A DNA stretch of 35,825 nt, taken from positions 1-35,825 of IMG/VR virus record IMGVR_UViG_3300042988_000731, one strand, 5' to 3'. The translations under genes and the position numbers were made by a program. Source of the stretch: a virus. Positions within the stretch are counted from its first letter, which is position 1, and every line of letters begins with the position of its first letter. The notes below the pieces were generated by a model. The model was not told the DNA's origin. It did no database searches and was given only the letters and a program-made list of their open reading frames with translations. Of the stretch, positions 10,403 through 35,811 are shown piece after piece.

Positions 10403-10642
10403 TTAGATAACGCCCTTCTTGCCGTGTGCCATCTCGTCATGGATTTGTTCAGCATCGGCAAGACGTTCCACCCTCTTGACCATCACACCGTTATCCAGAG
10501 TCTCCGTTATACGTACAGTCGGAGGCTTTGGGCAACGCTGAGCGGTGGCTCCGCAGTTACAGTCGATGTAGGGAAGCTCCTTCGACAACAGGCGTCTGGT
10601 AACGAAGGAGCAAGCCTTACATTCGTAGAAGTAGATCGGCAT
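10403..10642 (-). CDS. FmdB-type zinc ribbon protein (79 aa)
   Basis: This 79-residue protein begins MPIYFYECKACSF, a near match to the MPIYEYxCxxCG start of the FmdB zinc-ribbon family. The ligand pairs are C8-x2-C11 and CNCG near residues 28-31. Family members are small putative regulatory proteins of largely unknown role. The start overlaps the chaperonin stop (TAATG), so it is translationally coupled to it. A link to chaperonin function is only positional. Confidence 0.82.
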   Translation of the reverse strand: MPIYFYECKACSFVTRRLLSKELPYIDCNCGATAQRCPKPPTVRITETLDNGVMVKRVERLADAEQIHDEMAHGKKGVI

Positions 10643-12480
10643 TAGATACGCTCGTCAGCCTCAGACCCGCTCTTGATATCACGTAGGAATGCGTTGTTCT
10701 CACGCGCCTCCGCTCGCTCAAAAGTCTCGTCACGCGGGAAGACGATGGCACCGCCAAGTGTACCCAGGAGGGTGGCGATTGAGAGACTGTTGCGGATTGC
10801 TTCTAGTACCGCAGGAGTCGAGTCCAAAATGCCGATTTCAATGGCATCGCCCCACTCGCTCTCAAGTGCGTCGAAGACTAACTTGTTGTCACTCTCAGCC
10901 ATCATCACGTTGAGGGTCTTGGTAATCTCTTCGTCGCCCCAACCCAGGTTCCGGTACAGGACGTAGAACGGCTCAAGTAGGGCCGGTGCTAGCACATCGT
11001 CCAGTACGTCGGTGACATCGGGAACGTCCTTGAACATCTCGTACCACTTCCGCGTAGGGCGAGGTCCGTTCCTGAACGGACGGTTTTTGATAGCCTTGGC
11101 AAGCTGGATAAGCATCCACCCACCACCCGGCAAGCAACCGCTCTCGATAGCCTTACGAACGGCCATGATAGCGTCTTCGGCACGGTCCCGGCGCTCACGT
11201 AGCTCGCCGTTGGATGAACCGATGACCTTAAGCTTCGCGATACCACCGGAGATACGACCGATACGCTCTTGTAGGTAGCTGGCCTCAAGGATTGAACCAG
11301 CCGATTGTGCGAGTTGCTTCTCAAGAATGTCTACGCGCTCAAGAATCAGAACCTCGTCACACTGACCAAGCACGGTAGAGCGGAACTTGGTGGCCTCAAA
11401 TGCATCGACGCCATGCCCAAGATCCGCAAGGTTAAGCTCCTCATGCGTCCTGGGAAGCGGGTTGTTGAGGGCATCGTAAATCTTGGCTCCGGTGACCGCC
11501 GACAGGTCAAGTAGGAAGTCATACTGGCTGTTGGGGATTGCATTCATGGGAGCGATGATCGGGTAGACGTTCAGTGTCTCAGCCGACATCCAGTTGGCAG
11601 CAAGCTGGCCTAGTACAGATTCGCTGAATCCAGTAGCGACCAGCACCACGTTGTGGTTAAATCCATCGGTTTGCCACGCCATACCGATGCGTTCCATGAT
11701 GAAGATGATTTGCTGGATATCAATAATCCGCCCGTGGACGAGGACGAAGACCGGCTTCTCCATGTAGACCCGCTGTGCTCCTGGGTCGTTGATGAACTTG
11801 TTGTAGAACCGTCCGCAGGAGTCTTCGTAGCCGCTGTTGATCGGATAGCCCTCGATGCGCTCCACTTCGTAGGCAGACGGGCCACTGATTTCGGTGATGG
11901 TGACATTGCCCCTATCTCCAACGAGTGCAAGAGCTTCCATGACCGCATCTGCAAGGGGTTCGTCGCCATTAGCAGATAACTTTGCGACATTGTGTAGCAT
12001 TTCCTTTCCTTCGTCGGTAGACGAATCGCACGGGATTGATTCAGCGGTGATGGTGGGTTCGATTACATCGCGGAAGTAAGCCTGTAGCTCGCGAATGACC
12101 CGCTGTGGGGAGACTTCGGGGTGAGCCTTAGTGTAGGCCGAAATGTTCTTGACAATGGAATAAGCTAGGATTGTCGCCGTAGTGGTACCATCACCGGCCT
12201 CATTGGCGGTACGGATTGAGGCATCCCGGGCAGACTCCATGATTGCGTGAGCAACCGGGTCTTGGAAACCAATTGACTTGAAGACGGTCACACCGTCCTT
12301 GGTTACGAAGTTGGGGATGTTGTGTTCCTGCCGTTCCAGTAGCACGCTGCTACCTCCCGGCCCCAGAGTCGCCCCTACCAGAGCGGAGATGGTCTGCATA
12401 GTGTTAAGCACCTTGGCCTCAAGGCTGCTTCCCTTGACCATCATCTCCTTGCCTGTTGACTTGACCTTCTTGGTTTCCAT
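10642..12480 (-). CDS. groEL: Phage-encoded GroEL-like chaperonin (612 aa)
   Basis: This is a group I-type chaperonin, an ATP-driven folding machine, here 612 residues against about 548 for Escherichia coli GroEL. The ATP-site motifs are present: ATLGPGG near 37-43, VTKDGVTV near 59-66 with the catalytic aspartate D62, and GDGTTTATILA near 96-106. The late equatorial motif RAEDAIMAVRKA and the following GCLPGGG match GroEL EDAL and VAGGG. The apical region is divergent, so clients and lid may differ. It probably folds phage proteins. It follows the wHTH gene by a TAATG overlap with AAAGG upstream. No GroES gene is adjacent; a GroES-like candidate sits at 16248. Chaperonins are known from some giant phages such as Pseudomonas phage EL. 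Confidence 0.95.
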   Translation of the reverse strand: METKKVKSTGKEMMVKGSSLEAKVLNTMQTISALVGATLGPGGSSVLLERQEHNIPNFVTKDGVTVFKSIGFQDPVAHAIMESARDASIRTANEAGDGTTTATILAYSIVKNISAYTKAHPEVSPQRVIRELQAYFRDVIEPTITAESIPCDSSTDEGKEMLHNVAKLSANGDEPLADAVMEALALVGDRGNVTITEISGPSAYEVERIEGYPINSGYEDSCGRFYNKFINDPGAQRVYMEKPVFVLVHGRIIDIQQIIFIMERIGMAWQTDGFNHNVVLVATGFSESVLGQLAANWMSAETLNVYPIIAPMNAIPNSQYDFLLDLSAVTGAKIYDALNNPLPRTHEELNLADLGHGVDAFEATKFRSTVLGQCDEVLILERVDILEKQLAQSAGSILEASYLQERIGRISGGIAKLKVIGSSNGELRERRDRAEDAIMAVRKAIESGCLPGGGWMLIQLAKAIKNRPFRNGPRPTRKWYEMFKDVPDVTDVLDDVLAPALLEPFYVLYRNLGWGDEEITKTLNVMMAESDNKLVFDALESEWGDAIEIGILDSTPAVLEAIRNSLSIATLLGTLGGAIVFPRDETFERAEARENNAFLRDIKSGSEADERI

Positions 12481-19677: not shown

Positions 19678-19826
19678 TGCTAAACAAGATAAAGTGCTTC
19701 CTACGGGGCCACCGCTGGGTAGCTTGGTACAACGCAGGTTGGGTTTGCCAGAGATGTTCCAAAACCATTGTAGAGGCTAGTCAAATAGAGCCGAAGGATA
19801 GAGTTATCACCCGGGCTACGGAATAA
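19677..19826 (+). CDS. Zinc-knuckle mini-protein between the terminase subunits (49 aa)
   Basis: This 49-residue frame starts MLNKIKCFLRGHRW and has C7-x4-H12 followed by CQRC near residues 24-27. The layout fits the short CxxxxHxW...CxxC zinc proteins common in phages. It is real by context: its ATG overlaps the TerS stop and its TAA overlaps the TerL start, both as TAATG, and CAAGGAG lies just upstream. Function is unknown; a link to packaging is positional. Confidence 0.75.
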   Translation: MLNKIKCFLRGHRWVAWYNAGWVCQRCSKTIVEASQIEPKDRVITRATE

Positions 19827-21787
19827 TGATTGAAGGACCGACACCAGAACAACTTGAGGCGGCGCTGTTTGTCCTCCCCGAGACTAAGGAAGACCTCCAC
19901 CAGTGGATTAGGGTCTATCTGGGTATTAACTTGCCCGCTGTCATTGTTGACCCGGATTCCAACTCTTCCCCAATGGACATGGTGTGGGAGCTTTACGATG
20001 CTGCCCGATTGAACAAGCCTGAGTACAGCCAAGTTCTAGCATACGCAGCCCGCGACTCCTTCAAGACCTTCTCAGCCGCCATCTTTGAAATGCTCTGCGT
20101 CGTCCTCCTGGGACGATCAGTAGCTCACATGGCCGCTATCGAGTCCCAGGCAAAGAAGAGTCAGCAGTACCTCAAGCGTCACATCAACCGCCCGTACATT
20201 CGTAAATTCGTTACGGTCAAGAACGAGCGGTTCGTTGAGATCACCCGATACCACAACGCTGTTACTGGGCGCAACTTGACCACCGAAGAATTTGCTGGCC
20301 TCCTAGCAGCCGACCAAGCAAGCTACGAGGAAATCAAACACTACGTCACCATCGTTATTTGTACCATCGCCGGTGCTAACTCAGAACACGTACCGGTAAT
20401 GATCGTGGACGAAGTTGACGTTGTGGAAAACCCGGACGCTTACGAAGAAGCGAAGATGATTCCCGCACCTATGAACGGGAAGATGCCCATCACCCTTTAC
20501 ACCTCTACCCGTAAGTATTCCTACGGACTTGTCCAGAAGGAAATCGACCAGCAGGCAGAAACGGGCCTGCTCATTCGCCACTGGAACCTAATCGATGTCA
20601 CCCACCCATGCCCTTCCTTCCGACACCAGCCCGAAAAGGAAAAGATCAAGGTTTGGTACAACGACGAGTCTCTCAAGACCATTTCCGACGCTGACTACAA
20701 CCTCTTTGACCAAGTAGAGAAGGACAAGTGGCATGAAGATGAAGCCTACTACGGCTGCCTTCACAACTGCCGCCTCTTCGCCATGTGCCGTGGTCGCTTG
20801 GCTACCAAAACTGTCTGCCCCCGCTGCGACGGGAACGGAGTAAACTGCGGCGGTTTCCTCAAGCCGGTCGAACACACTCAAAACGTGTTCCGCAAGGTGA
20901 CCATTGACAAGGCCCAGGCTCAGCTACTCTGCCGCAAGCCCTCGACTCAGGGGTTGATCTACCCCAATTTCAACCGCGATACCCACATGAAGACCGCCGC
21001 CGACATGGCGTTCATCATCGATGGCGAGAAGCGCAAGGACTCCTTCTCCAAGAGCGACCTCATAGCGTTGCTCAAGGAGCGAGGGGCGCGTTTTGTGGCC
21101 GGTATCGACCATGGATTCAGTCACAACTTTGTCGTCGTCCTGGGGGCCATTTACGGCCAACGGCTCTATATCTTCGATGTCATCGCCCAGGCTGAGTTAG
21201 AGCTATCTCAAAAGGTCGAAATCTGCCTACAGCGAGTTTCCCCGCACGATCCAGAGGTCTGGGCCGATACGGAAGCTCCCGGAGACAACAAAACCCTTAA
21301 GAAAGACGCCCATTTACGTATCAAGGAGTGGGTAAAAGGCAAGGGATCGGTCATCGACGGCATTTCTTTGGTCCGTCTAGCCATCATGCCCGCTCTTGGC
21401 AAGGCAGAAGATGTCCGATTGTACCTTTTGAAGAACGATGAAGGCTGCGATCACCTTGCCCAGCGCATTTCTACGTATCACTGGGTCGTAGATGCGGCTG
21501 GACGCCTCACCAAAGAGCCCGATGACGAGGATGATGACGAGTGCGATGCCCTCAGATACCTCGTAATGAACGCCATGTCTATCAAAATGAAGGCATCGGT
21601 GAGCGAAGTGGACCGATTGGGTGACCAAAGCAAGCGGGAACCTCTCCAAGAGGGCAAAAAACAGTACAATCTCAATACGTGGATGCAGCAAATCATCGTA
21701 GAGCGCACCGGAATCGACTATGACGGTGAAGTAGTCGATGAAGGGCCAAAAGTGGGCGGAAAGGGCTCATTCAATTGGAATTTCTAG
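19826..21787 (+). CDS. terL: Terminase large subunit with a zinc-binding insertion (653 aa)
   Basis: This is the packaging motor ATPase and nuclease. The Walker A is the atypical ARDSFKT at residues 75-81, and VMIVDEVDVVE near 191 is Walker B plus the catalytic Glu. The RNase H-like nuclease has FVAGIDHGFSH near 424, WADTEAPGD near 474 and DDDECDALRYLV near 570 as the three acidic clusters. Between the two domains, about residues 310-350, an insertion contains seven cysteines (GCLHNCRLFAMCRG, then CPRCDGNGVNC) and probably binds zinc. At 653 residues it is longer than most TerL proteins, partly due to this insertion. It ends in TAG. Confidence 0.94.
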   Translation: MIEGPTPEQLEAALFVLPETKEDLHQWIRVYLGINLPAVIVDPDSNSSPMDMVWELYDAARLNKPEYSQVLAYAARDSFKTFSAAIFEMLCVVLLGRSVAHMAAIESQAKKSQQYLKRHINRPYIRKFVTVKNERFVEITRYHNAVTGRNLTTEEFAGLLAADQASYEEIKHYVTIVICTIAGANSEHVPVMIVDEVDVVENPDAYEEAKMIPAPMNGKMPITLYTSTRKYSYGLVQKEIDQQAETGLLIRHWNLIDVTHPCPSFRHQPEKEKIKVWYNDESLKTISDADYNLFDQVEKDKWHEDEAYYGCLHNCRLFAMCRGRLATKTVCPRCDGNGVNCGGFLKPVEHTQNVFRKVTIDKAQAQLLCRKPSTQGLIYPNFNRDTHMKTAADMAFIIDGEKRKDSFSKSDLIALLKERGARFVAGIDHGFSHNFVVVLGAIYGQRLYIFDVIAQAELELSQKVEICLQRVSPHDPEVWADTEAPGDNKTLKKDAHLRIKEWVKGKGSVIDGISLVRLAIMPALGKAEDVRLYLLKNDEGCDHLAQRISTYHWVVDAAGRLTKEPDDEDDDECDALRYLVMNAMSIKMKASVSEVDRLGDQSKREPLQEGKKQYNLNTWMQQIIVERTGIDYDGEVVDEGPKVGGKGSFNWNF

Positions 21788-22810: not shown

Positions 22811-24883
22811 ATGGCAAAGCGCCCCGTTGTTAACAAAACGGTCAAGTTGTTTTTGGCCGATCCAAACTCTACTCCGTTGGACAAGGTAGAGAAGATGGAG
22901 AACGACCCGACTGAGAGTCCGTTGCTTAAGAGCATGCTCTCTGCCCTTAGCGACCAGGGTGATTCCATTCAGCGTTTGTCGTTTGAGCGTGACCCGACTC
23001 AGAACAACGAGTACGCTGCAATTTACCGCCAGAAGATCCGCCTCATTCCAGACTTCCTCCTCAAGAGGGTGTCGATTCAAGACGACCTAGTAGCCGCTAT
23101 CATCAATGCTCGTTCTAACCAGCTTTCTGCGTTCGGTCGTCCACAGCCAGATCGTTTCTCCCTAGGATACAAAGTAGATATCAAGCCTGAGATTGCGGAG
23201 AAAGCCGACGAACAGGAAAAAGAAACTCTAGCCAAGCGGGTAGACAAGTTTGAGAAGCGACTCCTCACCTGTGGAGCTACGAAGGGCTGGGAGCAGGAAG
23301 AGGCTTTGACCCTTTCCCGCTTCCTAGCCATGCAGACCCGCAACGCTCTCGTTCTTGGACGGTTCGCTACGGAAATGTTGTATGCACCAGATGACAATGG
23401 CACCAAGGAATTCCACTCTTTCCGCCCGGTAGACGCTGGTACTATTTATCGCGCCGCCCCCTACAAGACTACGGCTGAGAACGTTCGTAAGCAAGCTCGC
23501 AAGCTTATGGAGCAGATGCTTAACCGAAAGATCAAGGAGGAAGAGGCTGAAAACTTCGATGAAAACTACCCGTGGGTACAGGTCATCAACGGCTTGCCGA
23601 TTCAAGTGTTTACTGGCAAGGAGCTTGCTGTTCATACTGTTTATCCTGTCACTGACGTTGAGCTACAGGGCTATCCACTTACCCCACTAGACACTGTAAT
23701 CGCAGCCGTTACCACACATATCAACATAACTTCACACAACAAGCTATTCTTCCAATCTGGTCGAGCCGCCAAGGGCATGCTCGTTATTCAGAGCGAGGAC
23801 TTGAGTGAGAACGAGGTGGCTAAGATTCGCCAGCAGTTCCAGGCGAACATCAACAACGTTAACAACTCCTGGCGCATGCCGGTGTTCGCGATTGGCCCGA
23901 AGGATCAGGTTACTTTCCAGCCTATCGAGACTACTGCACGCGACATGGAATTCCAGTACCTATCGGACAGCAACGCCCGAGTCATCCTCTCTGCCTTCCA
24001 GATGTCCCCAGAGGAGCTACCCGGTTATGCCCATCTGTCTCGCGGTACCAATAACCAAAGCCTTTCTGAGAGCAACAAAGAGTATCAGCTAGAGGCGCAC
24101 CGCGACACCGGCATCCGTCCCCTACTTGCCCAGTTTGAGGACTTCCTAAACGGGACCATCTTCCCAGCAATGGACGAGGAGCTAAGCAAGCTCTGCGTCA
24201 TCAAGCTTGTGGGTTTGGATGCAGATTCAGCAGAAAAGGAAGCCGTCCGTCTATCGACCGACATGCCTCTTCACATGAACATGGACGAGGTACTGTCCCA
24301 TGTGGAAAAGGACCCAATCGGTAAGGAGTTTGGTGGTGAGTTCCTGATCAACCCCCAATGGCAAGCCATTCTCGACAAGTACGTCGAAGTGGGAGTCATT
24401 CAGGAGAAGTTCTTTGGCCGAAAGGGTGCTAGCCAAGACCCAACCATGAAGTATTACCGCGACCCCTTCTGGTTCCAGTGGCAACAGCTACAGCTACAGA
24501 TGATGCAGATGCAGCAAGAGGCACAGGCACAGCAGCAGGCAGCCGCGCAAGGCCAGCCGCCTCCCGGTGAGGGTGGTGGAGGCGAAGGTGGCCCACCCCC
24601 AGAAGGCGGCGGTGAAGGTGGTCCCCCGCCAGAGGAAGGGCAGGCTCCCCAAGAAGAACAGCCCCAGGAGCAGGGTGGTGGTCAGGAATTGACGCAGGGC
24701 GTTGACCAAGCCCTGGCTGATATGTCTAAGTCTGAAGCCCAGCTACCCCCTTCTAAGCGCCGGTTGGTAGTCCAGCAGCGTCGTACCATTAAACACATCA
24801 TGGACGCTTGGGAGAACGACGCTCGCGCAGCCATAGATGACATTCTAGACATTGCAGAGGCACATGCTCCCAAGGAGAAGTAA
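22811..24883 (+). CDS. Portal protein with low-complexity C-terminal tail (690 aa)
   Basis: This is the portal, the dodecameric channel of the head vertex. The call rests on size, position (after TerL, before a Mu F-like gene) and portal-like segments: a helical N-terminus, SIQDDLVAAIINARSNQLS near 95, a long helix in the core (ENEVAKIRQQFQANINN), and NARVILSAFQMSPEELPGY near 390. Residues about 555-630 are Gln/Gly/Pro/Glu-rich low complexity. The last 60 residues are charged helix. AAGGAG lies 7 nt before ATG, and the stop overlaps the next start (TAATG). Confidence 0.85.
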   Translation: MAKRPVVNKTVKLFLADPNSTPLDKVEKMENDPTESPLLKSMLSALSDQGDSIQRLSFERDPTQNNEYAAIYRQKIRLIPDFLLKRVSIQDDLVAAIINARSNQLSAFGRPQPDRFSLGYKVDIKPEIAEKADEQEKETLAKRVDKFEKRLLTCGATKGWEQEEALTLSRFLAMQTRNALVLGRFATEMLYAPDDNGTKEFHSFRPVDAGTIYRAAPYKTTAENVRKQARKLMEQMLNRKIKEEEAENFDENYPWVQVINGLPIQVFTGKELAVHTVYPVTDVELQGYPLTPLDTVIAAVTTHINITSHNKLFFQSGRAAKGMLVIQSEDLSENEVAKIRQQFQANINNVNNSWRMPVFAIGPKDQVTFQPIETTARDMEFQYLSDSNARVILSAFQMSPEELPGYAHLSRGTNNQSLSESNKEYQLEAHRDTGIRPLLAQFEDFLNGTIFPAMDEELSKLCVIKLVGLDADSAEKEAVRLSTDMPLHMNMDEVLSHVEKDPIGKEFGGEFLINPQWQAILDKYVEVGVIQEKFFGRKGASQDPTMKYYRDPFWFQWQQLQLQMMQMQQEAQAQQQAAAQGQPPPGEGGGGEGGPPPEGGGEGGPPPEEGQAPQEEQPQEQGGGQELTQGVDQALADMSKSEAQLPPSKRRLVVQQRRTIKHIMDAWENDARAAIDDILDIAEAHAPKEK

Positions 24884-25659
24884 TGGCCAATCTGAATAGA
24901 CTTGGTAAGGGGGCATCGCGTAAGATCCAAAAAGCGATAGAAGCTCTCTACGACAATGCAAAGGTCCGTTTCCTTGGCCCGAATGCCGTGGGAAAGCGGA
25001 TCTTCATTTCGTTTGACCGCAACTTCTCGCTACCCGGTATTTTTGAAGCGGGCTCGATGGAAGAGAACATCAAACCCGACATGGAAGTCTTAGCGTCACT
25101 GATTCGGGTTGCCACCGACTACCTTGAGGCTTCTCGTCAGCGCACTACCGCCAAGGTCATTCACGAAATTAACGGAGCACTAGCAGAAGCGAAACACTCT
25201 GGTGGAATGTCCAGAGAGGATTTTCGGGGGCTGGTCAATACTCGATTGAGTGAAGTGTGGGCCGATGCGGCGAATGCGGTCCACACCATTATCGATACTG
25301 AAGTCAATCATGCCAAGAACGTTTCCGTCCTTGACGGTATTGTGGGGGCGAACCTGAACGCAGGCGTCGATGACCCCGTAGTCTTTTTTGTGGTGGTGAG
25401 AGATGAAGACCTGTGTAACGAGTGTAAAAGGCTGCACCTCCTGCCCGATGGCAAAACTCCCCGCGTCTGGCGACTCAGCGAGCTTTCACATGGCTACCAT
25501 AAGAGGGGCGAAGATAGCCCTAGTATCGGTGGGCTTCATCCTCATTGCCGCTGTACTCTCGTTACTCTAATGCCCGGATACGGATTCAACGCTGGTGGCT
25601 TTGTGCAGTACAAAAAAGTCGGCTATAGCGAGTACGACCACCAACACAATGTGGATTAA
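24883..25659 (+). CDS. Mu gpF-like minor head/head morphogenesis protein (258 aa)
   Basis: This 258-residue protein has the Mu F-type signature. A helical region is followed by a cysteine pair, CNECKRLH near 177, and then GLHPHCRCTL near 217-226, the hallmark HPxCRC motif with metal-binding Cys/His. Such proteins follow the portal in many tailed phages and enter the head, often with an injected role. The ATG overlaps the portal stop and AAGGAG lies 5 nt upstream. It is the last gene of the rightward run before the minus-strand block. Confidence 0.9.
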   Translation: MANLNRLGKGASRKIQKAIEALYDNAKVRFLGPNAVGKRIFISFDRNFSLPGIFEAGSMEENIKPDMEVLASLIRVATDYLEASRQRTTAKVIHEINGALAEAKHSGGMSREDFRGLVNTRLSEVWADAANAVHTIIDTEVNHAKNVSVLDGIVGANLNAGVDDPVVFFVVVRDEDLCNECKRLHLLPDGKTPRVWRLSELSHGYHKRGEDSPSIGGLHPHCRCTLVTLMPGYGFNAGGFVQYKKVGYSEYDHQHNVD

Positions 25660-30602: not shown

Positions 30603-33600
30603 ATGGTAACCCCCTCCAAGCAAACCTCCGCTACTAGCATGATCATTGACGGCGTAGCCGCCAGCGAAGCCATTGATAGTTCAGGAGAAATTCTAGACGT
30701 TAAGGGGTGCGATACCTCTGACTTTGAAAACGGTGTTGGCCTCCTCAACTATGAGCATCGCGGTGACCAAGCGCAAGGGGCAAGCGGCAACGACATCGTT
30801 GGCAAGATCATCTACTCCAAGAAAATCTTTAAGCGAGCGGACTGTGAAGGCAAGCGCCAGGAAGCGTACTGGGATCATGTCAAGCTGCCCTTCATCTACA
30901 TCAAGGCTCGCCTCTATGATGGAGCAGAGCACCCGGGCGCTCTAGCCCTCGCCGCCGCAATCCGCGATGCGGTGATGCACTCTGAGCCAATCCTACTTCG
31001 CTTCTCTATTGAGGGGACCACTCTCAAGAAGGAAGGCAATCGCCTGCTCCGGACAATCGGACGCAAGGTTGCCTTGACCTTCAAGCCAGCTAACAAGAGT
31101 GCCATTAGCGGACTGATTTCCGACCCCTCTGGGCCTAAGCCCATCACAGAAAAGCAGGGCGAGAAGTCTCTTCTCTCCCGTTTACTTGAAGACGACACCA
31201 GCAAGAGCGAGGCTCCGGGCCAGCAACACCTGGGCAGCTACGAAATGTCATACAACCCCATCGTGGAAGAAGATGCGGTTGAAATGCTTAAGAGTGCTGC
31301 CGAACGGATTTACGATTTACGTCTGAGCACTTACAAGTGGCACCCTATCAAGTACAATTTTTTGACTCCCATTGATTTACAAAAGGGGGAATTTGATTTT
31401 GACTCGATGTACCCTTCCTTGCAGTTGACTCTGGGGGCTAATAAGCTGCGACAGTTGCGCGACTTCCTACTAGAAAACAACATGCAGAGAGTCAATGAAC
31501 GTGACCCCAGATTACCAGAGCCAATTCGGCAAGCTCTCGCCCATACTGGTAGAGACTATGAGGGAAACTTCTCTGTCAGCCGCATCCAGCAACTCATAGA
31601 CGACAAACCGCGAATCCGTTTCAACCATTCTGCGGATATGGGGATCTATGATTATATCCAGCGTCACAACGATCTCAACTCTAACGTCTTCCGCCTAAAT
31701 CTAACCAACGAACAAGCTGCCAAGCTGCACAGCGCGGGTGTCCTAGATAGTTTTATGAACATGCATAAAATATCGCAGGGATCGCAACACCCTGTTCAGC
31801 CCGGTACCATCGGTTGGGTGCGATGGACGGGTGGCAAAGATGGTATCCACATTGACGAAGTTCAGAGTGATTATGGGCGCAAGTGGTCTGCCCTAATTGA
31901 GCATCAGCTTGGGAAAGAGGTTGCCGAAGGACGCATGACGCCAGAGGCGGCAGACTTCCATCGCAGAGACTTGTACGGAAAACTGCCCGACGATCATCTC
32001 AAGCAGATCCAGAAGATCCTGTTTGGCAACAAGCAGCCTGCTGAAATCTTGCATGAAGGGTTCCATCAGTGGGCACGCGATAACAACTTTGCGGGCACCC
32101 CCGTTCACATCTGGGCTCCCGGCGCTAAGGCTGCCATGAACGGCATGGATCAGCACGCACCGCTCCCGGGCCACTATATCGTAACCTACAAGGACATCCC
32201 TGAGAAGATGGGTATGGAGCCTGCTAAGTACGGCGAAATTCCCACGCAGGACAACAAGTCCATCATCAAGGCGAGGCGCAAGAAGAAGGACAGCGACGAC
32301 GAAATCGAGTGGAAGGGATCAAACGAAACCTTCAAAGACAAGATTCGTAAGACTGAGGAGCTTCTCAAGACCTATATTGGTGGCATGACCAGCGGCGCTC
32401 CGTCTACTCTTGAGGGTGGAGCAGCCTTGCAGCGGGAAGACGATAGACTTCATCGGCACGACTTCAAAAACAAGCTACGTTCCGCTATCCGCGACATGGG
32501 AGTCGAGGTGGTTGGTAAAGCTGCCATGCTTAAGTTCTTTAAATGGCAGTTACCGGAAGTCAATGAGACTTTCCTAGACCATTTTACAGACCTCGTTGCA
32601 GATATCAAGGCGCGTCCAGCAGTATTGGACAGTCTCATGTCTAAGTGGGAACTTCCCATGGCAAAGACGGAAGAAGGCGAGCCCGCAGAGGCCCCCGCTA
32701 CCGAAGTCAAGCCTAAGAAGCCCAAAAAGGAACGCGCCAAGCGTCCTCCCAAGGAGAAGCCTCCTCTCCCAATGCCTGTTGAGCAGTACAAGCCGACTCC
32801 TGAAGCGGAAAATCCTACAGACGCTCCCGCACTTGCTCCCGGCAAGGGTCGTTGGGCTAACACCGTTAGGCCGGGGCTCGTCGGAGGTGTTCTTTTTGCT
32901 CCCGCCATGCCTCAAGGCATCAAGCTGCACAATTGGGACACCGATCCCGTCATGGCTAGCATTATCAATGCCGATAATGAAGCGGAAAGCCCCAATCTGA
33001 CCCCAGAGCAACGGGAACACATTTTGACTTACGTACACCGACCATGGGCACGCGCTATGCGGTCATGGATGGTGATGAACAAGTTGGCTGAAACTGGGAA
33101 TCTACCGGCAAGCGTCATGGCGCATGCTGCCATCTTTGCGGCTATGAGCCCCAATACATCTGTCCCCATTCAGGAGCTTTACTTTGGGCATTACATGGAT
33201 TTCAGACATCAGCACCCTGACTTGTTTACCAATCTAGAGGGGGTTTCTATTCAGGATGCCATCGCTTTCCATAATCACCTTAACAGCCTGACTCCTCCCC
33301 AGTTCCTACCAGCGTACTATGCAGAAGGTGGCCCTGGTGGGATGAAATATGGTACGGAACGTTCACGCCCCGCTCCGGGCACCAAGGCTTTCTTGGCACG
33401 CGAGCAGGCGACGTTTGAAAAACGCCCACAAGGCAAGCCTCTGCTCAATTACCATAAGGTGCATCCGACTCTTATGGCGTTGCACCGAATTGTTAAGAAC
33501 GACGGACGTTCGTTTGTGGATTACATCATGCAGCAGAAGCTTGCCCATGGCCCAGGAGCTTTCATGTACGGGTTTGGGCCGAAGCTTGCTCGTTACATGG

Positions 33601-35498
33601 GATTGATGGCTGGCATGGGCAACATGATTGTCCCCGACCGTCACATGATGCGTTCCTTGTTCAATTTGTCTCTTGCACAGAAAGCGGAGTTTGATGTTGT
33701 CCAACGTACCCTTTCTCCGATGGAAGGAGAGCCCATTCTTCGGGCATTGGACAGACACTTCTTGCAGAGCAACCCCTCTGTGCGAAAAGCTCAGACTTTG
33801 TACCCAGAGCATTTTGGAACGAGGCCCGAACAGGCAGTAGGCCCAGGTTTTTGGCTACATTGGCTAGCGTACCCTCAGTATGAAACTTTGCTGGGGCGTC
33901 CAACCGAAAACGCCAATGCCGGTACCGCACATGACCCGTTTTGGCAGGCAATCCCTCAAATCCTAAATGAAGAGGGTATCCCGCACGATTTCCCACAGTC
34001 AGAGGAACCCTGGCTACAGAAGAACGAGTCTGAGGTGGTTGGTATTCCAGAACGGGTTGCTAGGGCTACAAAACGAGTGGAGGATCAGTTTGGAGAAGCC
34101 GCAGCTTCTCTCTTCTTCCACTCTTACGGTATCCCGGCGCTCATGCACAATGAACAGATGGACGCTATCCCCGGCCAGAGCGTACGTAAGTCTGAATTTG
34201 AAGCTATCGAGCAAGCCAGCTTAATCAAGCGAGAGTACACCGAAGTTGAGTCTGCTCGCATGTGCAAGGCTATGGACTTGGCCGATAACGATGAAATCTA
34301 TACCGTAGACCGTGACTACTCACATGGTCGCTTCTGGGTTAAGGGTGGTCAACTTCGCATCTTGGAAGACCATGAAGGGATCTTAAGGCGTTACCTAAAG
34401 AATGGCCCAGTAGAAGACAATAGAGCGGGCCTTGGTCAGCTTATCATGGAGGGGCACCAAGTCGCTCCTGAGTCTCCTGTTGTTTCTGGCAAGGAGATTG
34501 ACTTGGGCGATCCTGCTGACGATCAGATTAAGCCGGGTGGGGTACCAGAGGCTATCGAAGATCCACACATGGATGAAGGTCCGACCGAAATTGAAACACC
34601 GGCTGCGGTCAACGACCTCAAGCCTCCCCCACCGGTTTTTGATCTGATGGAGGCGGGCTCGCATACCCCAGAACGCATCGAAATCAAAGAAGGGGTAGTG
34701 TATCAGAACGGGTTTAAGCTTGAGCAAGAGGATGCTGACTATCTACTCCACCTTATCCGTACTGGTAGGGCCACAATCCGATACGTCAAGAACGACGTAG
34801 ATGAAAAGCTCGCCAAGATGGCGGCACACTTTGAAAACCTTGCCAAGACCGCCCCCGAAGTCCGCGCAGCAATGGGGAGTCTCCAAGGCGCGGTTAAGTC
34901 TGGATGCATGCCACAAAATCATGCCGACGCTATCCGTCGCGGTCTATTTACCGACCGGCTTACAGGTGGACAGATCGGCAACGTGGCCGCTCACGAAGAC
35001 TTCCTTGAAGGTCTTAAGGGACAAAAAGACCAAGGGGTCCACGTTCATATGGATGCCAACGATTTTGGTTCCATCAACAAGATGCACGGTATGCCTGTGG
35101 GCGACCAAGCTATTAAGACCATGGCTCGATCCATGCGCGAGGTCATGGACAAGCATGTGGGGCGTAAACATGGCAAGCTATTCAGAGTTGGCGGCGATGA
35201 ATTCAAGGCTCATTTCCGAACGGCTGCCCACGCTTCTGCTTTTATGCGAGCGTTGCATAACCATCTAGATAGTTTAGTGCCAGTTGGTGGCACGCACCGC
35301 ATCTCATTGTCGAGCGGGATTGGACACACGCCAGAGCATGCTGAACAAGCATTGATGAATGCTAAGAACGAGAAGAAGGCTCAGAACTATCCAGTTGGTC
35401 AAGCTGAGCATCACTCGCACTCCCTGCTCCCTGGTCAGGAGGGGCCGGTGCCGCTAGCCGCTTCTTCAGTGCCCAAAGTACGCTTGCAACTGCGCTAG
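30603..35498 (+). CDS. Giant polyvalent protein: prohead-protease-like N-terminus, HhH-GPD-like middle, C-terminal GGDEF domain (1631 aa)
   Basis: This protein has 1631 residues. Residues about 15-175 resemble the HK97-type (S78) prohead protease, with LNYEHRG (H52) and LRFSIEG (S135) as catalytic candidates. Residues about 410-430 hold IHIDEVQSDYGRKW, a motif seen in phage polyvalent proteins. Residues about 690-760 are Lys/Pro/Glu-rich linker. Residues about 840-1030, with HAAIFAAMSPNTSVPIQ and GFGPKLARYMG then PDRHMMRSL, look like a helix-hairpin-helix DNA glycosylase domain. Residues about 1440-1600 form a GGDEF domain: LTDRLTGG, MDANDFGSIN (D1484), GMPVGD, FRVGGDEF (GGDEF at 1530-1534) and LSSGIG. 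The start has only weak GAGAG upstream. It likely acts in the head and may be injected; the protease would cut it or other head proteins. It ends in TAG. Confidence 0.88.
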   Translation: MVTPSKQTSATSMIIDGVAASEAIDSSGEILDVKGCDTSDFENGVGLLNYEHRGDQAQGASGNDIVGKIIYSKKIFKRADCEGKRQEAYWDHVKLPFIYIKARLYDGAEHPGALALAAAIRDAVMHSEPILLRFSIEGTTLKKEGNRLLRTIGRKVALTFKPANKSAISGLISDPSGPKPITEKQGEKSLLSRLLEDDTSKSEAPGQQHLGSYEMSYNPIVEEDAVEMLKSAAERIYDLRLSTYKWHPIKYNFLTPIDLQKGEFDFDSMYPSLQLTLGANKLRQLRDFLLENNMQRVNERDPRLPEPIRQALAHTGRDYEGNFSVSRIQQLIDDKPRIRFNHSADMGIYDYIQRHNDLNSNVFRLNLTNEQAAKLHSAGVLDSFMNMHKISQGSQHPVQPGTIGWVRWTGGKDGIHIDEVQSDYGRKWSALIEHQLGKEVAEGRMTPEAADFHRRDLYGKLPDDHLKQIQKILFGNKQPAEILHEGFHQWARDNNFAGTPVHIWAPGAKAAMNGMDQHAPLPGHYIVTYKDIPEKMGMEPAKYGEIPTQDNKSIIKARRKKKDSDDEIEWKGSNETFKDKIRKTEELLKTYIGGMTSGAPSTLEGGAALQREDDRLHRHDFKNKLRSAIRDMGVEVVGKAAMLKFFKWQLPEVNETFLDHFTDLVADIKARPAVLDSLMSKWELPMAKTEEGEPAEAPATEVKPKKPKKERAKRPPKEKPPLPMPVEQYKPTPEAENPTDAPALAPGKGRWANTVRPGLVGGVLFAPAMPQGIKLHNWDTDPVMASIINADNEAESPNLTPEQREHILTYVHRPWARAMRSWMVMNKLAETGNLPASVMAHAAIFAAMSPNTSVPIQELYFGHYMDFRHQHPDLFTNLEGVSIQDAIAFHNHLNSLTPPQFLPAYYAEGGPGGMKYGTERSRPAPGTKAFLAREQATFEKRPQGKPLLNYHKVHPTLMALHRIVKNDGRSFVDYIMQQKLAHGPGAFMYGFGPKLARYMGLMAGMGNMIVPDRHMMRSLFNLSLAQKAEFDVVQRTLSPMEGEPILRALDRHFLQSNPSVRKAQTLYPEHFGTRPEQAVGPGFWLHWLAYPQYETLLGRPTENANAGTAHDPFWQAIPQILNEEGIPHDFPQSEEPWLQKNESEVVGIPERVARATKRVEDQFGEAAASLFFHSYGIPALMHNEQMDAIPGQSVRKSEFEAIEQASLIKREYTEVESARMCKAMDLADNDEIYTVDRDYSHGRFWVKGGQLRILEDHEGILRRYLKNGPVEDNRAGLGQLIMEGHQVAPESPVVSGKEIDLGDPADDQIKPGGVPEAIEDPHMDEGPTEIETPAAVNDLKPPPPVFDLMEAGSHTPERIEIKEGVVYQNGFKLEQEDADYLLHLIRTGRATIRYVKNDVDEKLAKMAAHFENLAKTAPEVRAAMGSLQGAVKSGCMPQNHADAIRRGLFTDRLTGGQIGNVAAHEDFLEGLKGQKDQGVHVHMDANDFGSINKMHGMPVGDQAIKTMARSMREVMDKHVGRKHGKLFRVGGDEFKAHFRTAAHASAFMRALHNHLDSLVPVGGTHRISLSSGIGHTPEHAEQALMNAKNEKKAQNYPVGQAEHHSHSLLPGQEGPVPLAASSVPKVRLQLR

Positions 35499-35811
35499 AA
35501 CAGGCGATGCAGATTTTCCTACCATTGTAGAAATCAATGTCGATTGCCAAAACGTCTTGGCAATGTGAGCATTGCTTTAGCCCTTGTTTTTTGAGGCATC
35601 GTGGGCATGTGCCAATTGAGGTAAGAACCGCAGGGCTTTTACAAACCTTGCAAGTACCCGTTATCTTATCGCCTTTCTTAAGCCGATGATAGGTAGCGCG
35701 GCAAGATCGGCAATCGGAAGAAACGGGCCGTATATTACCGGAAACATTGGACTTTTTGTAAAACTCTTCTGCTGGTTTTTTGACCCGGCAAATTGTGCAG
35801 TGGTATTCCAT
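35362..35811 (-). CDS. Multi-zinc-ribbon protein (149 aa)
   Basis: This 149-residue protein has six CxxC pairs (HCTIC, DCRSC, TCKVC, TCPRC, QCSHC, ICIAC) over residues 5-104, so it should bind two or three zinc ions. The first part (KKPAEEFYKKS) resembles the start of small HNH or zinc proteins of phages. The C-terminal 45 residues are a low-complexity tail that overlaps the 3' end of the giant gene on the other strand by 137 nt. Only 14 nt lie upstream in the window, with no clear ribosome site. A free-standing mobile or regulatory gene is possible. Confidence 0.72.
   Translation of the reverse strand: MEYHCTICRVKKPAEEFYKKSNVSGNIRPVSSDCRSCRATYHRLKKGDKITGTCKVCKSPAVLTSIGTCPRCLKKQGLKQCSHCQDVLAIDIDFYNGRKICIACSSAVASVLWALKKRLAAPAPPDQGAGSASDAQLDQLDSSEPSSRS

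Follow-up and report, generated by a model that had tools for sequence, protein, structure and literature searches.

A GGDEF domain on the head protease chain of an Mx1-like phage and its possible delivery as a cyclase cargo

The window analysed here, the whole stretch of 35,825 bases of the IMG/VR-class virus contig IMGVR_UViG_3300042988_000731, encodes a 1631-residue protein with a prohead protease domain at its N-terminus and a GGDEF domain at its C-terminus. Protease, insertion, a region called MID, a domain called HYP and GGDEF follow each other on one chain, and the large terminase subunit (TerL) and the portal protein are encoded on the same contig, which is the layout of a phage polyvalent protein. 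In related phages the GGDEF domain lies beside the head genes, close to the gene of the major capsid protein (MCP), and often on the protease chain itself, an arrangement suggesting that the phage particle may take it up and carry it into the host. In the reading that we prefer, and to which we give slightly less than an even chance, the window encodes a self-processing head protein of an Mx1-like phage, from which a cargo cyclase would be ejected that likely makes cyclic di-GMP (c-di-GMP).

It is already known that polyvalent proteins can carry GGDEF domains and that the corresponding gene of Myxococcus phage Mx1 bears the annotation "nucleotide cyclase". Iyer et al. 2017 (PMC5512222) reported GGDEF domains in phage polyvalent proteins and suggested an interference with host nucleotide signals. 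The window protein resembles these in being a giant multidomain phage protein, and delivery into the host was proposed there too; the passages of that report dealing with these domains give an Acetonema prophage protein as example and describe no protease fusion, fixed MCP slot, fusion states or erosion. A Mu-like virus contig from the Cariaco Basin likewise encodes a diguanylate cyclase, for which no head fusion is described in the section concerned (PMC7785012). Our literature search found no earlier report of a protease-GGDEF fusion series, a clade-wide fixed slot, a capsid-like peptide at the junction or repeated erosion. Phages have been described to degrade or soak up cyclic nucleotides by Acb proteins; a phage group with a cyclase gene next to its head genes might, in contrast, deliver an enzyme that makes such signals.

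The GGDEF domain of the giant head protein

An initial annotation, made from the letters of the window, had placed a GGDEF domain at the C-terminus of the 1631-residue protein, and we were able to confirm this by profile and fold. PF00990 matches residues 1475-1588, once only in the window record, with an E-value of 9.1e-10 and 39 bits against a curated cut-off of 23.8, so that a chance match can be dismissed. The AlphaFold2 model of the domain, based on 13 sequences (pLDDT 88.8, pTM 0.83), has the palm fold of cyclases. VIA-align superimposed it on PleD (2wb4_B) over 146 residues with Z 18.2 and rmsd 1.9 and on SadC with Z 18.6, Foldseek agrees on solved cyclases, and a profile search of PDB sequences retrieved GcbC at 7.5e-10. 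The VIA-align rows obtained for HYP and GGDEF together cover mainly the GGDEF part.

The residues named in the initial annotation were correctly assigned. D1484 and D1532 are equivalent to the metal ligand positions D327 and E370 of PleD, N1492 to N335 and D1501 to D344, so the metal, guanine and GGDEF residues are intact, while the FK lysine (K332 in PleD) is replaced by G1489 and the second Asp of DxD by N1486. Among the phosphate contacts, K442 is kept as K1588, and the position of R446 is occupied by K1592. The RxxD of the inhibitory site (I-site), read from the sequence with the spacing of PleD (R359/D362, motif 368-372), is not kept, as R1521 is present and a Gly stands at the Asp position. 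The window domain is thereby like the bacterial cyclases PleD, WspR, SadC and GcbC in its fold (Z about 18) and in its metal, guanine and GGDEF residues, but differs from them in the HYP partner, the changes of K332 to Gly and R446 to Lys and the lost I-site Asp.

An altered activity had also been proposed, and this stood in one part only. K332 has been described as a transition-state stabiliser, and its loss makes altered activity possible. The Asn in DxD, in contrast, is no sign of it, because Asn is the norm at this position in the phage family (35 of 40 distinct sequences); the metal ligands described for PleD are D327, the main chain of I328 and E370, and the second Asp of DxD is not named among them.

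The fusion to a head-associated protein was borne out as well, since a protease domain of the head maturation protease family phrog_1028 and the GGDEF domain lie on the same chain. The phrog_1028 match covers residues 6-54 of the window protein, and the minimal relatives L164 and L170 match the same family at 3e-11 and 3e-9. H52 and S135, which we take to be the catalytic pair of the protease, are identical in all 51 aligned protease rows. A Pfam search of five protease variants gave only matches below cut-off, and none was obtained with Pfam for the insertion of residues about 235-585. The HYP domain measures 150-180 amino acids (aa) across the family; its Mx1 form (WNM70323) had no match in a PHROG search.

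Position and distribution in Mx1-like phages

When 50,697 phage records were searched with the whole giant protein, Mx1 was the sole relative; the GGDEF region alone also gave weak matches in four Acinetobacter-labelled records and a faecal one. In Mx1, protease (WNM70322), HYP (WNM70323) and GGDEF (WNM70324, "nucleotide cyclase") are encoded by three adjoining genes upstream of the MCP gene. The Mx1 GGDEF protein (WNM70324.1, OR576727.2) is homologous to the window domain at 45% identity and shares with it DxNDFGxINK, FRxGGDEFK and the slot between protease and MCP, but it is the product of a separate gene (243 aa), so that three genes in Mx1 stand against one chain in the window.

Scans of viral contigs, one with the window GGDEF alone and one with a two-sequence alignment, yielded no confirmed relative. 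A scan of viral contigs for the pattern DxNDFGxIN found 19 loci, seven of them members and 12 chance or unrelated matches; conservation of the pattern in these seven is by construction, so residue counts limited to the MCP-fetched loci are also given below. An alignment scan of viral contigs returned 30 viral loci, among them 18 other GGDEF proteins (L034-L051), which were left out of the family counts, and contigs of bacterial genomes, identified as such by their titles, returned at least 80 loci at 25-43% identity. Among the other GGDEF proteins, L034, L040, L041, L047-L049 and L051 are standalone proteins of about 155-200 aa from other phage contigs; most have L in place of F after DxN or DxD. 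They are a second phage GGDEF type. L035-L038 are giant frames of 2994-3725 aa with a GGDEF-like domain (SDLNALTAIN), on contigs without the Mx1-like gene order.

In order to avoid choosing relatives by their GGDEF motif, we fetched them by MCP (65 loci, of which 63 were usable) and then examined them for GGDEF. The domain was present near the MCP in 38 of the 63 census loci and none was shown in 18 (14 by distinct MCP), the slot being out of view in the other seven (L138, L158, L160, L162, L169, L187 and L190). In 37 of the 38 carriers GGDEF lies upstream of the MCP gene on the same strand, at distances of 1.8-7.5 kb (35 within 3.2 kb). Protease to GGDEF form one chain in 11 carriers, with two more fused but cut at a contig edge; HYP-GGDEF is a single gene behind the protease in 15, and nine have three genes, one further carrier being cut (near-copies L150 and L174 are included in these counts). 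Throughout the census, loci that show these parts keep the order protease, HYP, GGDEF. All carriers but L154, which starts at a contig edge, gave a match to HYP (37 of 38), versus none of the 18 loci without GGDEF. Whole-record searches with PF00990 gave one match in each of 20 carriers tested (three below cut-off) and nothing in the 18 non-carrier records (11 to 161 kb). The protease domain is in view in 15 of these 18; L175, L179 and L180 match only other parts of the protease-protein homologue.

Two relatives without GGDEF have a PI3/PI4-kinase-like match behind the protease (L182:6532-8181, E 2e-5; L189:4889-6769, E 1e-3; both below cut-off), as if the cargo domain behind the protease were exchangeable.

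The common gene order also bears on a chance motif, host contamination or an assembly chimera as sources of the GGDEF domain. The window fusion rests on one contig, and some matches of the viral set (L042, L044, L050) resemble ordinary host cyclases. However, since the same gene order is common to many separate contigs and to the isolate Mx1, this explanation is refuted, and we regard its probability as negligible.

The distribution of the domain was compared with trees of MCP and portal proteins, both quick and unrooted. In the MCP tree (64 rows; L194, which has no MCP, and L195, with 23% MCP, were left out) all 39 carriers, Mx1 included, fall into one set of 43 rows with four unseen ones, at an SH-aLRT support of 89 (not starred), and 18 rows without GGDEF lie outside. 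In the portal tree (31 rows) 13 rows without GGDEF are split off by one branch with support 73, and the window lies within a 13-row set of 12 carriers and one unseen row (95, starred). As the trees are unrooted, they are compatible with gain as well as with loss of GGDEF.

Capsid-like peptide, active site and possible roles

The MCPs of the family start with a peptide like KALEAGxYNAAPSTLxQGxALQxED. A profile hidden Markov model built from MCP N-termini with EAG (55 of 62 MCPs) was run over the 4602 open reading frames (ORFs) of the 65 loci. At E<0.01 it matched 38 of 51 protease ORFs, plus two further ORFs that do not encode an MCP. The peptide starts 2-84 aa past the matched protease stretch in 37 of these proteases and 177 aa past it in L148, and 30 of the 38 read ALQxE; in the window it occupies residues 586-613, C-terminal to the insertion. 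Beyond ALQxE the minimal proteases L164, L170 and L185 have tails of 67, 60 and 59 aa. The protease gp245 of phage SPN3US has been described to remove its own 64-aa C-terminal propeptide, cutting after Glu (PMC10052503), and the minimal relatives are similar to it in being prohead proteases with about 60 aa beyond such a site. Compared with gp245, the present family can have more than 1000 aa in the C-terminal piece, its cut is a predicted one and its site mostly reads ALQxE versus AxE. By analogy, the peptide would be a maturation cut site common to MCP and protease; alternatively, it might bind another head part and stay uncut. ORFs with the MCP N-terminal peptide and its continuation were also seen at L194:9611-10624 (337 aa) and L160:7762-8328 (188 aa), possibly head proteins with the same signal as the MCP; L194 shares its contig with L134.

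According to the reading that we prefer, the chain would enter the prohead via its N-terminal protease, which would cut itself loose at the capsid-protein-like peptide in the manner of gp245. The 1019 residues downstream of the cut, ending in HYP-GGDEF, would stay in the head as cargo, and HYP-GGDEF would be ejected into the host together with the phage DNA. There the GGDEF domain would bind GTP and most likely make c-di-GMP or a related cyclic dinucleotide. Because the I-site Asp is lost, product inhibition would be absent, and host signalling might be shifted early in infection. A protease-linked cargo with a capsid-like site would moreover predict which other proteins enter such heads. As Mx1 is an isolate with described host effects, delivery could be examined in the laboratory. 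In the host of Mx1, development is among the processes on which c-di-GMP bears. Hosts of Mx1 have been described to turn spherical once the phage has adsorbed, and its DNA can become trapped in spores (PMC6070905); these changes may be connected with c-di-GMP.

An active cyclase might also be made late from the head genes and act, unpackaged, in the dying host, the fusions serving only for co-expression. The place of the gene among the head genes would fit this, as would the arrangement in Mx1 and in eight further distinct census phages, where protease, HYP and GGDEF are all encoded by separate genes. However, the protease-chain fusion of 11 census loci and the window would carry the domain into the prohead, and a peptide in common with the MCP agrees with processing within the head, so that we consider late action outside the particle decidedly improbable.

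Residue counts refer to 40 distinct GGDEF sequences, near-copies L150 and L174 being left out; L033 is cut before K442, and L133 aligns only in part and was counted as eroded. D327, N335, GG, D370, E371 and K442 are jointly intact in 32 of the 39 testable sequences, window included, and in 29 of 36 when the MCP-fetched set is taken alone. Of the 32 sequences with intact core, 17 have K or R at K332, and on the MCP tree the contrast of K with all other residues requires 11 changes, seven of them forced. The position of D344 holds D in 28 sequences, N in nine and E in two. The eroded forms of the motif are SGDEF, SGDKS, SGDKA, SGDRL, EGDKF, GGDCF and KGNDF. For three pairs among L178, L181 and L191, dN/dS was 0.06-0.10 (dS 1.1-1.6), and L144/L188 gave 0.58; dS was saturated in two other pairs. 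From these comparisons, selection looks purifying.

Several observations weigh against a delivered, active cyclase. Seven of the 39 sequences (L133, L140, L149, L156, L159, L167, L192) are eroded in core residues and yet retain the domain, and this erosion needs six changes on the MCP tree, five of them forced by starred branches; the window itself has Gly at K332 and Lys at R446. The peptide is absent at E<0.01 from 13 of the 51 protease ORFs (three of these score 0.018 to 0.07), and eight of the 38 peptide matches do not read ALQxE. L159, one of the 38 carriers, has the module in the opposite orientation to the MCP gene. L160 lies inside the carrier set of the MCP tree, but PF00990 found no match in its 98.7-kb record; as the contig begins 3.9 kb before the MCP gene, this may reflect either loss or truncation. 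EAL and PilZ, searched for in 17 large records (121-182 kb), were found in none, which implies that any signal would depend on receptors of the host.

Since seven members are eroded and the window is without the FK lysine, a non-catalytic role is possible. The main rival to the delivered cyclase is indeed a head-cargo or assembly part that can do without catalysis, whose palm would bind GTP or a dinucleotide or be purely structural, like the degenerate GGDEF domains described in the literature as GTP sensors. Repeated erosion of the core with the domain retained is what such a part would lead one to expect, and the eroded pair L149/L156 still shows a dN/dS of 0.13, though its dS of 2.3 is near saturation; the losses of K332 and of the I-site Asp in the window point in the same direction. 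Conversely, the 29 of 36 MCP-fetched sequences that keep D327, N335, GG-D-E and K442 together retain more than a scaffold seems to need, and L028, L033 and L193 have a near-canonical stretch with FK and ND. We rate a non-catalytic palm as possible, if rather doubtful. For the window protein itself, catalysis is close to an even question.

A second palm domain, mCpol (PF18182, the Panoptes cyclase family), was matched in 22 of 40 related records, 19 of them above cut-off: 17 of 20 GGDEF carriers, four of 18 records without GGDEF, and L160. Its presence in phages is surprising, since the anti-phage Panoptes system uses mCpol as its cyclase. The proteins concerned (L197-L204, L206-L218 and, for Mx1, L205) measure about 400-1800 aa; that of Mx1, WNM70340 (L205:5964-7370), is encoded upstream of the tail sheath gene and matches below cut-off. 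Some of them (L199-L201, L206, L208-L211) keep an intact DGD..GGDE site, which is eroded in Mx1, L213-L215, L217 and L218. In the window fragment, mCpol was searched for and not found. A link of the phage GGDEF domain to cyclic-nucleotide defences, which the initial annotation had raised, gains only circumstantial weight from these 22 records.

Members with Asn in place of D344 may use other purine nucleoside triphosphates, as Hypr GGDEFs do, and their product may jam cyclic-nucleotide defences. D344 has been described as setting the choice of base, and Hypr enzymes, in which this D is changed to S, as making cyclic GMP-AMP; in the phage family Asn is found there in nine of 40 sequences, and many relatives also have the mCpol palm. 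The window, however, keeps D1501, the Hypr enzymes described have Ser and not Asn at this position, and the Asn may simply be erosion. A changed product appears very unlikely to us.

A bolder version of the delivery idea would see in the protease a clade-wide delivery vehicle, with a cyclase placed behind a capsid-like autocleavage site, freed in the head and ejected to rewrite host cyclic-dinucleotide signalling; as many relatives also have mCpol, the action of the virion might extend to c-di-GMP and defence nucleotides alike, and the repeated loss of active sites would be the record of an arms race. We think of this extended version as unlikely.

Coordinates and neighbouring genes

Table 1. 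Features of the giant head-protein gene and of neighbouring genes in the window
Feature	Coordinates	Strand	Remark
Gene of 1631 aa, head protease / polyvalent / HYP / GGDEF fusion	30603..35498	+	frame open throughout
Prohead protease domain, residues about 1-190, with H52 and S135	30603..31172	+	phrog_1028 match
Insertion, residues about 235-585, contains IDEVQSDY	31305..32357	+	absent from Mx1 (two-sequence alignment)
MCP-N-terminus-like peptide ending ALQRED, residues 586-613	32358..32441	+	proposed autocleavage site
MID region, residues about 740-1220	32820..34262	+	alignable with Mx1 protease protein
HYP domain, residues 1236-1410	34308..34832	+	separate 150-aa gene in Mx1 (WNM70323)
GGDEF palm domain, residues about 1448-1610	34944..35432	+	profile and predicted fold
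D1484, metal ligand position	35052..35054	+	PleD D327
GGDEF motif, residues 1530-1534	35190..35204	+	D1532 = PleD E370
Terminase large subunit	19826..21787	+	
Portal protein	22811..24883	+	
Mx1 hyp317 homologue	24883..25659	+	weak head-morphogenesis match
Small Cys-rich gene	35362..35811	-	convergent, overlaps 3' end of GGDEF gene

Besides terminase and portal, the window carries genes for a DNA polymerase, a ribonucleotide reductase and a GroEL-like chaperonin, the latter at 10642-12480 on the minus strand (phrog_5725, 1e-82). The small Cys-rich gene at the end of Table 1 has a weak likeness to HNH nucleases and endonuclease VII, and homologues occupy the same place in many relatives.

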